Of a DNA stretch of 64,000 nt, positions 60,542-64,000 are shown in pieces. The DNA lies in contig NZ_CP071503.1 in the NCBI RefSeq assembly GCF_017354945.1, positions 3,534,001 through 3,598,000 on the forward strand, read 5' to 3'. Origin of the DNA: Shewanella avicenniae (GTDB taxonomy: Bacteria > Pseudomonadota > Gammaproteobacteria > Enterobacterales > Shewanellaceae). The position numbers were made by a program, and so were the translations under genes. Under the pieces are notes generated by a model. The model was not told the origin of the DNA. It saw nothing but the letters and a program-made list of their open reading frames with translations, and did no database searches. Within the stretch, counting starts at the first letter, position 1. Each line of letters opens with the position of its first letter.

Positions 60542-60872
60542 AGTTCGCTGCGCCTCACATCTTTGCGGCCAAAAATTCATTCGCGAGGTACAAGCTTAGA
60601 TCAGCTCAGCGCAACTTGAGAGTGAATAACCAAGATTTTTCCGCAAAGCCTACGAAAACGTCAGCAACAACCAAAGAGTGGCTTATCGCCAGTGGAATTA
60701 TCTAGCTAAGACAACAAATCAATTGATTGATTTTTGTATATTTAATTAATTTTAGTGTTAAACAAAGATGGGATAGTGAGATGAAATCTATAGCGTGATG
60801 GGGAGTGTAAAATTGGCCCCTGATCGGGGATAGCATCGGAATCTCAGACAGGAAAGACCTGAAAGGAATGGA

Positions 60873-60953
60873 TTATTTGCTGTTCTTTTTCGCCGCTTGT
60901 TTACGGGTGTTTTGCAGATACAGGTGATAGTAGTTTTGCATACCGTAGACCAT
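60873..60953 (-). CDS. 26-residue Tyr-rich peptide, paralogue of the upstream peptide
   Basis: A tiny gene below usual length cut-offs. It starts at 60953 behind a perfect AAGGAGAAACAAT leader and encodes MVYGMQNYYHLYLQNTRK followed by a short basic tail (QAAKKNSK). Its first 12 residues align with the 54-residue peptide encoded 23 bp upstream (MVYG-x-Q-N-[FY]-Y-x-[ML]-Y), and the ribosome-site leader is nearly identical. Shared start, spacing and orientation make a real duplicated gene likely. Aromatic-rich N-terminus and Lys-rich tail; no signal peptide and no cysteine. Function unknown. Confidence 0.7.
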   Translation of the reverse strand: MVYGMQNYYHLYLQNTRKQAAKKNSK

Positions 60954-60976
60954 ATTGTTTCTCCTTAAGGGTTCAG

Positions 60977-61141
60977 TTAGCACACTGCAACGTTGTTGGT
61001 TGCGAATGCTGGTGCTTTGTTTGATTGCGCACTTTTCGCAGCAGTTGTGTCCACTTTAGCGACTGTCGCTTGTGCTTTCACAGTTTTACGATTAGGGCGC
61101 TCGTAGTACATGTAATAGAAGTTTTGCGCTCCGTATACCAT
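60977..61141 (-). CDS. 54-residue Tyr-rich peptide of unknown function
   Basis: The ATG at 61141 is preceded by AAAAGGAGAAACAAC, a near-perfect Shine-Dalgarno. The N-terminus MVYGAQNFYYMYYERP holds six aromatics in 13 residues, then a basic step (NRKTVK). A Thr/Ala/Ser/Lys low-complexity stretch follows (AQATVAKVDTTAAKSAQSNK), and the end is Asn/Val with a terminal Cys. A longer frame to 61195 has a weaker start. It is the first gene of a two-gene unit with the 26-residue peptide. No transport or modification enzyme lies beside it in the window. Function unknown. Confidence 0.75.
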   Translation of the reverse strand: MVYGAQNFYYMYYERPNRKTVKAQATVAKVDTTAAKSAQSNKAPAFATNNVAVC

Positions 61142-61511
61142 GTTGTTTCTCCTTTTGTGTAAGTTAATTACTTTCGATGGTGTAATTATAGGCATCAGCG
61201 TGCGCTATCGCAACATTTTTGTGTAAAAAAATTACAAAAACAAATGTGCACACATAAGCATATGATTTACATCGTAATAAATACATATTACAGCATGAGC
61301 AGATGTGCCATACACCTTGAATTCTATGTTTTAAAATTACATAAATCGTCATTATCAGTGAAAAATCGTCATTTTTTGTAATTGTGTTACATATTAAATC
61401 ATTTGCCATGACAGTCACTGCTGCGCTACACGTCAACAAGATCTCACCCACAGTGACAGGCTCCCCTGCCAAATCAAAAGGTGCAGCGTTGATCGCGAAT
61501 GCGCAAACGAA
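61142..61511. other. Upstream region of the peptide genes
   Basis: No supported gene. Open frames on both strands (up to about 100 codons) cross it but lack ribosome sites and coding character. It is AT-rich near 61195-61390, where the peptide promoter is expected. Confidence 0.4.
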
Positions 61512-62241: not shown

Positions 62242-64000
62242 ATGAGACTATCTATCATTTCGCTTGCTGTCGTCAGTCAGCTTGCGGCAATTGCGAGTGT
62301 GTCGGCAGCTGATGATGCCAAGATTGAGAAGATTTCAGTTGTAGGCTCTCGTTTAGCCGTGCGGACAGCGACCGATACCCCAGTACCGGTAGACATTATT
62401 ACCGCCGAACAGCTCGAAGCCACCGGTTTGACCGAAACAGCCAAGGCGCTGCAATCAGCCGCACCAAGCTACAGCTTTCCTTTTTCTGCAGTGACCGACG
62501 GCTCTGACGCGGTTCGCCCAGCCAGTTTACGCGGGATGTCCCCCGATCACGCGTTGGTATTGGTCAACGGCAAGCGCTATCACGGTTCAGCGTTGGTGCA
62601 TTTGAACGGTACCGCCAGTAAAGGTTCGTCCAACGTTGACTTGAACACCATTCCAATGACCGCTATTAAACGTATTGAAATCCTGCGTGATGGTGCCTCC
62701 GCACAATACGGTTCTGACGCGATTGCGGGCGTGATCAACGTGGTGCTAAAAGATGCTGACGATGGTGGTTTGGTTAATGCACAGACAGGCCAAACCTATA
62801 TGGGCGATGGCGAACAATGGCGTGTTGGGGTAAACAAAGGACTGCAAACCAATGAAGATGGTTTCGTCAACATCTCGATGGAAGCGCAACACAAAAACAG
62901 CACCAACCGCGCGGGTAACGACCCACGTCAACAATATGCTGCACTGGCCGATGGTAGCCCAGATCCACGCGAAGACAGCTTTGATAGAAAGAATCACCAG
63001 GTGGGCGACGGTACTTACGATAACTTGGGCATCTTTGTTAACGCCGGTCAAAGCTTCTCGGATAAAAGCAAACTGTATGCCTTTGGCGGCTTCAGTCATC
63101 GCGAAAACGAATCTGGCGCCTTCTATCGCCGTTCATTGGATGCGCGTAACTTAACCGCTATCTATGAAGATGGCTTCCTGCCAAAAATCGCTCCGAAACT
63201 GACCGACTACACTGCAGTGGTGGGCTACAAATTTAATCCGCTGGAGTGGGACGTTGATGTCTCAGCCGGTTACGGTAAAAACGAATTTGAATATCACGTC
63301 AACAACAGCTTGAACGTGTCTTACGGCGATGCCAGTCCAACCAGCTTCTACGCCGGTACCCTGTCAACTGATGAGCTCGACTTCACCATTGACGCATCAC
63401 GTTATATTCCGTTCTACAACAGTTCAGATTTGATGCTGGCACTAGGCGCTTTGTGGCGTGAAAACAGCTATAAGATTGAAGCTGGTGAAGAAGCCTCCTA
63501 CGCCAATGGCGGCTTTGGTGGCGCAACCGGTAGCCAAGGTTTCACAGGTTTTACCCCAGAGTCTCAAGTGGATGAAAGCCGTCATAACACTGGCGTTTAC
63601 GCTGAAGTTGAAAACCAACTGACGCAAGATTTCTACTGGGCTGCTGCGGCACGTTATGAGTACTACTCTGACTTTGGTAGCAACACTAGCTGGAAGTTAG
63701 CTACACGCTATGAACTGTCGGATCGCTTTGCGGTACGTGCTACTGCGAACACCGGCTTCCGCGCCCCAAGCGTACAACAGCTGTACTTCTCTAACATCTC
63801 TACCCTGTTCTCTAACGACCCAGTGACCGGCCAACCTGTACCAACAGAATCAGGTACCTTCAACAGTCTGTCAGATGTGGCCCATGCGTTGGGGATCAGC
63901 GAGCTGAAACCTGAGAAATCACAATCGATCAGCGGTGGCTTGGTGTTCACTGGCGATGATGGTTTGAGCATCACTCTGGATGCGTACCAAATCGATGTGG
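62242..64000 (+). CDS. TonB-dependent receptor, 3' end outside the window
   Basis: An outer-membrane active transporter, with 586 codons visible. The ATG at 62242 follows AGAGGATT. It has a signal peptide (about 1-22, SVSA-AD), a TonB-box-like IEKISVVGSRL, and a plug domain (about 30-165) with TPVPVDIITAEQLEATGL, LRGMSPDHALVLVNGKRYH and RIEILRDGASAQYGSDAIAGVINVVLK. Barrel strands follow, including the late NTGFRAPSVQQLYF motif. Such RGMSPD/NGKRYH receptors are abundant in Shewanella and its relatives and often take up sugars or peptides. The substrate cannot be assigned. Confidence 0.93.
   Translation, partial: MRLSIISLAVVSQLAAIASVSAADDAKIEKISVVGSRLAVRTATDTPVPVDIITAEQLEATGLTETAKALQSAAPSYSFPFSAVTDGSDAVRPASLRGMSPDHALVLVNGKRYHGSALVHLNGTASKGSSNVDLNTIPMTAIKRIEILRDGASAQYGSDAIAGVINVVLKDADDGGLVNAQTGQTYMGDGEQWRVGVNKGLQTNEDGFVNISMEAQHKNSTNRAGNDPRQQYAALADGSPDPREDSFDRKNHQVGDGTYDNLGIFVNAGQSFSDKSKLYAFGGFSHRENESGAFYRRSLDARNLTAIYEDGFLPKIAPKLTDYTAVVGYKFNPLEWDVDVSAGYGKNEFEYHVNNSLNVSYGDASPTSFYAGTLSTDELDFTIDASRYIPFYNSSDLMLALGALWRENSYKIEAGEEASYANGGFGGATGSQGFTGFTPESQVDESRHNTGVYAEVENQLTQDFYWAAAARYEYYSDFGSNTSWKLATRYELSDRFAVRATANTGFRAPSVQQLYFSNISTLFSNDPVTGQPVPTESGTFNSLSDVAHALGISELKPEKSQSISGGLVFTGDDGLSITLDAYQIDV

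Follow-up and report, generated by a model that had tools for sequence, protein, structure and literature searches.

SgrS/SgrT and AzuCR of enterobacteria are small metabolic RNAs whose micro-proteins act on transport or metabolic proteins. In Vibrio cholerae, the 29-aa micro-protein VcdP binds and activates citrate synthase, and the VcdRP locus is laid out with its small open reading frame first, a conserved CCCC stretch for pairing close to the 3' end, and control by a carbon-metabolism regulator (PMC8672173). HexR has the consensus operator TGTAATTAAATTACA and is regarded as an activator where it binds upstream of a promoter (PMC11906056).

Here, we compare these systems with a pair of micro-genes in the genome of Shewanella avicenniae (4.2 Mb, single contig), found in a 64,000-nucleotide stretch that we refer to as the window. 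Our best explanation, which we hold at slightly under an even chance as a whole, is that a HexR-controlled mRNA would encode a pair of paralogous micro-proteins, both cytosolic, which would bind a protein of central carbon metabolism and tune it. Its components differ in strength and are graded separately below.

Results

Micro-genes and their products

A sequence-only reading of this DNA had proposed two adjacent minus-strand genes of 54 and 26 codons, and both coordinates and sizes proved exact, with AAGGAGAAACAA ahead of each start (Table 1). The starts chosen there, at 61141 and 60953, are the right ones, since the longer in-frame readings (a 72-codon open reading frame from the ATG at 61195, and a GTG start for gene 2) are broken by a 1-nt indel and stop codons in Shewanella mangrovi. 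The two peptides have in common the block M-V-Y-G-x-Q-N-[FY]-Y-x-[ML]-Y, or, in a shorter and looser form, MxYGxQN[FY]Y. This shared block had also been noticed from the sequence, and it is not a chance likeness, since none of 1,000,000 shuffles of peptide 2 reaches the BLOSUM62 score of the two N termini. Both peptides are basic (pI 9.7-10) and of low complexity, with many Lys, Asn, and Gln residues, and Tyr codons are crowded near both starts (five of the first 13 in gene 1). At E <= 5, these two genes are the only copies in their own genome.

Table 1. Features of the micro-gene locus, in window positions
Feature	Position	Strand	Sequence or remark
HexR-type operator 2	61377..61391	.	TGTAATTGTGTTACA (S. 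mangrovi TGTAATTGTATTACA); 14/15 conserved within a 45%-identical stretch
HexR-type operator 1	61222..61236	.	TGTAAAAAAATTACA; 15/15 conserved; centre ~-51 from inferred transcription start
Sigma-70-type promoter	61185..61213	-	TTGCGA-N17-TATAAT; 10/12 consensus match, best in region
5' untranslated leader	61142..61178	-	86% identical in S. mangrovi
Gene 1 Shine-Dalgarno	61154-61143	-	AAGGAGAAACAA; inside 5' leader
Gene 1	61141..60977	-	54 codons; product MVYGAQNFYYMYYERPNRKTVKAQATVAKVDTTAAKSAQSNKAPAFATNNVAVC; 54-aa micro-protein MVYGAQNFYYMYYERPNRK...PAFATNNVAVC
Gene 2 Shine-Dalgarno leader	60966-60955	-	AAGGAGAAACAA (S. mangrovi AAGGAGACACAC)
Gene 2	60953..60873	-	26 codons; product MVYGMQNYYHLYLQNTRKQAAKKNSK; paralog of gene 1
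Conserved 3' element	60816..60872	-	two short hairpins and invariant linker; 89% identical over 57 nt
3'-element hairpins	60861-60849; 60829-60817	-	CAGG-CCTG; CCCC-GATCA-GGGG

Mapping the pair across 129 Shewanella genomes, that of S. avicenniae included, we found both genes in one further genome, Shewanella mangrovi YQH10, and no detectable copy in the other 127; at 28 other loci of the genus, no copy adjoins cheX. S. mangrovi keeps the gene order, both starts and frames, both Shine-Dalgarno leaders, and the stops. The two species group together in a cheX tree of 24 genomes (support 100/98). Beyond the genus, the start-block pattern matched only these two Shewanella among 394 genomes of the order, a profile search of 369 genomes of the class gave no believable relative, and the viral contigs, phages, and plasmids searched held no relative. 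No family match was found in Pfam, NCBIfam, PHROGs, or PADLOC profiles, and a search of solved structures returned a chance match only (E 0.065). Thus, the family appears undescribed in the libraries searched, in agreement with the earlier statement that no described family was known.

Several candidates were rejected along the way. Other Shewanella and the class yielded profile matches at E 0.02-5, which were checked, the best-scoring ones as sequence, and set aside; a match at one locus (L115, VHGVQNYYFLYRQRY) runs antisense within an OmpA-like gene, and a recurrent protein, MSKEQKNRKESKKQPLLSAKEKKAAKHAKNATKGFLDNTK (L029, L034, and L036), is an unrelated Lys-rich micro-protein. The latter, about 40 aa long, is itself conserved in several other Shewanella genomes.

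The products of gene 1 and its S. mangrovi ortholog are 67% identical, with a nucleotide identity of 0.75. Constraint is uneven along this gene: dN/dS is 0.046 over codons 1-22 and about 0.65 in the tail, the middle drifts and carries one 3-nt indel that keeps the frame, and the C-terminal PAFATxNVAxC is kept, including the terminal Cys. The gene 2 ortholog, MIYGMQNYYHLYLQKNRKQAVKQNSK, has 89% nucleotide identity and a dN/dS of 0.21. Joining codons 1-22 of gene 1 with gene 2 gives a dN/dS of 0.108; 7 amino-acid changes are seen where 11.4 would be expected if substitutions were placed randomly (p = 0.008), as estimated from two species and 17 substitutions in the conserved blocks. Purifying selection on the start block and gene 2 is well supported by these comparisons. 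Some nucleotide-level constraint is also indicated, because pS is 0.30-0.50 in the micro-genes and 0.64-0.71 in dnaB and alr. The suggestion that these are duplicated, translated genes gains support from the kept frame, start, Shine-Dalgarno, and stop, the in-frame indel, and the low dN/dS, and we regard it as very probable that both genes are translated and selected.

Transcription unit and neighborhood

The micro-genes belong to a 430-bp transcription unit that is conserved in S. mangrovi and comprises two HexR-type operators, a promoter, the ribosome-binding site of each gene, and a 57-nt 3' element. Over a background identity of 33-45%, the unit rises in islands (operator 2, 0.93; operator 1, 1.0; promoter, 0.76; 5' leader, 0.86). 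Its flanks do not align: the alignment of the two species stops just past the 3' element, beyond which identity is 0.42. The S. mangrovi promoter, TTGCGT-N17-TATAAT, keeps the TATAAT and the spacing. From the single sequence, the leader and the genes had been recognized correctly, but the conserved operators, promoter, and 3' element had been missed.

In both genomes, dnaB-alr-cheX lies on the same side of the unit (78% nucleotide identity). In S. mangrovi, but not in the window, about 5 kb (L054 3421-8277) separates cheX from the micro-genes and encodes a two-component pair along with the flagellar genes flgH and flgT. The gene downstream of the unit is cheX in the window and a histidine kinase in S. 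mangrovi. The far side holds a TonB receptor in the window versus MarR-EmrAB in S. mangrovi. Since the flanking genes differ between the two species, the unit is most simply read as vertically inherited and independent of its neighbors. Around operator 2, no other gene is near in the window; in S. mangrovi, it lies about 100 bp from marR. The TonB-dependent receptor gene (62242-63999, plus strand) starts about 850 bp beyond operator 2, runs off the window end, and has no counterpart at the S. mangrovi locus.

HexR-type operators

Each operator in the window genome is one base off TGTAATNNNATTACA, and 39 bp separate operator 1 from the -10 box in both species. Strict TGTAAN5TTACA sites number six in the S. 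avicenniae genome and seven in that of S. mangrovi, two of them at the micro-gene locus in each. Because a reversed-pattern control yields four and two sites, respectively, the count alone is weak, and the pairing and conservation of the sites carry the weight; the chance of two near-consensus sites within one 250-bp region is about 8e-7. Other strict or near-consensus sites in the S. avicenniae genome lie ahead of adhE, ppsA/ppsR/aroG, gapA/gapB, and phosphoketolase, with S. mangrovi counterparts checked at adhE, aroG, and gapA. HexR itself is encoded between pykA and zwf (NF008451, 535.7 bits against a cut-off of 296). On this comparative evidence, HexR probably controls the twin micro-gene operon. 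No micro-protein member of the HexR regulon was found in the literature searched, a scope outside which the primary paper (Leyn 2011) fell.

Away from the micro-gene locus, a strict site conserved in both genomes directly precedes an aroFGH-type DAHP synthase gene, beside ppsR and ppsA. Another such site lies between two genes that are possible further HexR targets; their products are 111 aa (with a likely signal peptide) and 155 aa (RYWLFKSEPD..., no NCBIfam match) long.

Discussion

In the mechanism that we favor, a stand-alone small mRNA of ~380 nt would be made from one sigma-70 promoter and encode two basic, Tyr-rich micro-proteins, with HexR acting on the promoter from the two upstream operators. 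Activation is predicted because the operators sit upstream of the promoter: at low KDPG, as when lactate, acetate, or amino acids sustain gluconeogenic growth, HexR would activate the promoter, and sugars feeding the Entner-Doudoroff pathway would make it release the operators. The MxYGxQN[FY]YxxY block may provide the face that binds a single partner, most likely a central-carbon enzyme or complex; constraint is strongest in this block, common to both starts, and this argues for a partner that the two peptides share. Divergence of the basic tails would give the long form, which keeps its C-terminal Cys, and the short form different roles, such as effector and competitor. As for the 3' element, it could stabilize the mRNA, end it, or serve as a base-pairing RNA. 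AlphaFold gave no usable fold (mean pLDDT 52.9). We commit to a protein-binding role, tentatively, because known carbon-regulated small-mRNA micro-proteins bind metabolic proteins; by this analogy, the pair may act on a metabolic protein as its inferred target. Of the functions offered in the sequence-only reading, regulatory micro-proteins fit best, since the promoter carries two conserved HexR-type operators.

The locus could instead resemble SgrS/SgrT and VcdRP in producing a dual-function RNA, with a 3' element that base-pairs with metabolic mRNAs in addition to the two micro-proteins. Conservation of this element equals that of gene 2 (89%), and it contains an invariant linker and a CCCC stretch; the small open reading frames are conserved (dN/dS 0.11, Shine-Dalgarno, start, and stop), which suggests their translation. 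VcdRP shares the layout (PMC8672173). However, the CCCC sits in a hairpin stem, and neither species showed a Rho-independent terminator with a U-run downstream. Moreover, the element shows no extra fold stability over shuffles (z -0.20), no covariation, and no match in an Rfam scan, whose sole hit, FuFi-1, lies elsewhere and scores far below its gathering score. We consider this alternative unlikely. Slightly less probable is its fuller form, a HexR-controlled dual-function RNA whose long and short paralogs would act on the same target and, together with the base-pairing 3' element, form a switch, specific to this lineage, from sugar catabolism to gluconeogenesis and back. The partial matches to the 3' element that other genomes contain (L020-L024) fall outside any comparable locus, and reading the opposite strand as CsrA-type was rejected, since the hairpin GGA motif is not kept in S. 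mangrovi.

Binding to RNA or to membranes is less likely than a dual-function RNA. Basic Tyr-rich peptides might bind RNA or the ribosome in starvation, like small ribosome-associated proteins, and the high pI and low-complexity, Lys/Asn/Gln-rich composition would suit such a role, but no relation to known ribosome-associated proteins was found in Pfam or NCBIfam, and we judge it improbable. More doubtful are membrane-active micro-proteins or type I toxins. A membrane surface could accommodate an aromatic N terminus with a basic tail behind it, but neither peptide has a hydrophobic segment and the helical moment is like that of shuffles (p 0.21-0.44), so the earlier membrane-active suggestion finds no backing; for a type I toxin, the 3' element beyond the open reading frames does not fit, and no antisense RNA was identified.

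The two weakest readings fail for want of an enzyme, a conserved downstream gene, and a terminator. RiPP precursors, as once proposed, or secreted peptides are very improbable, although the products are small and aromatic, one with a conserved terminal Cys. Inspection by eye shows no signal peptide, and neither species has a modification enzyme beside the genes. In the window, where the neighbors are cheX, alr, dnaB, and the TonB receptor, no exporter adjoins them either; the S. mangrovi neighbors are a two-component pair, flagellar genes, and a MarR-EmrAB set whose pump has no like in the window. Conservation also lies in the N terminus and not in a C-terminal core, and the tail of gene 1 drifts. 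The lack of a signal peptide and of an adjacent modification enzyme had been seen from the sequence alone. Equally remote are translated leader peptides for Tyr-codon attenuation of a downstream gene, which the dense Tyr codons by the starts would suit, but the downstream gene is not conserved, both open reading frames have selected protein sequence, and no terminator/anti-terminator pair is found.

The HexR-controlled pair of protein-binding micro-proteins, if true, would be a compact and testable clade-restricted family wired to a central-metabolism regulator. Its frozen start block and drifting tails in a duplicated pair likely mark out a binding face. Few bacteria are known to have micro-proteins that act on metabolic enzymes, and a pair linked to HexR in a model for respiration such as Shewanella would contribute a new regulator and a new arrangement. 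The case also illustrates that the reading of a 26-codon gene from one window can gain comparative support.

Compared with described systems, the locus resembles VcdRP by layout, as a small mRNA that encodes a tiny protein (29 aa versus 26 and 54 here) and has a conserved 3' region and a promoter under a regulator of carbon metabolism, but VcdRP is controlled by CRP and not HexR, has one open reading frame rather than two paralogs, and has both a terminator and base-pairing that are proven. SgrS/SgrT and AzuCR are likewise small metabolic RNAs encoding micro-proteins, but they have other regulators and sequences, a single open reading frame, and proven pairing. With the HexR regulon of Shewanella (PMC3223726; motif, PMC11906056), the locus shares operators that match the motif, in a genome that encodes HexR and has sites at adhE, ppsA, gapA, and phosphoketolase. 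By analogy, a micro-protein pair comparable to VcdP or AzuC is the best reading. This is a known kind of system, a metabolically controlled small-protein mRNA, in which the duplicated pair and the probable HexR link are new.
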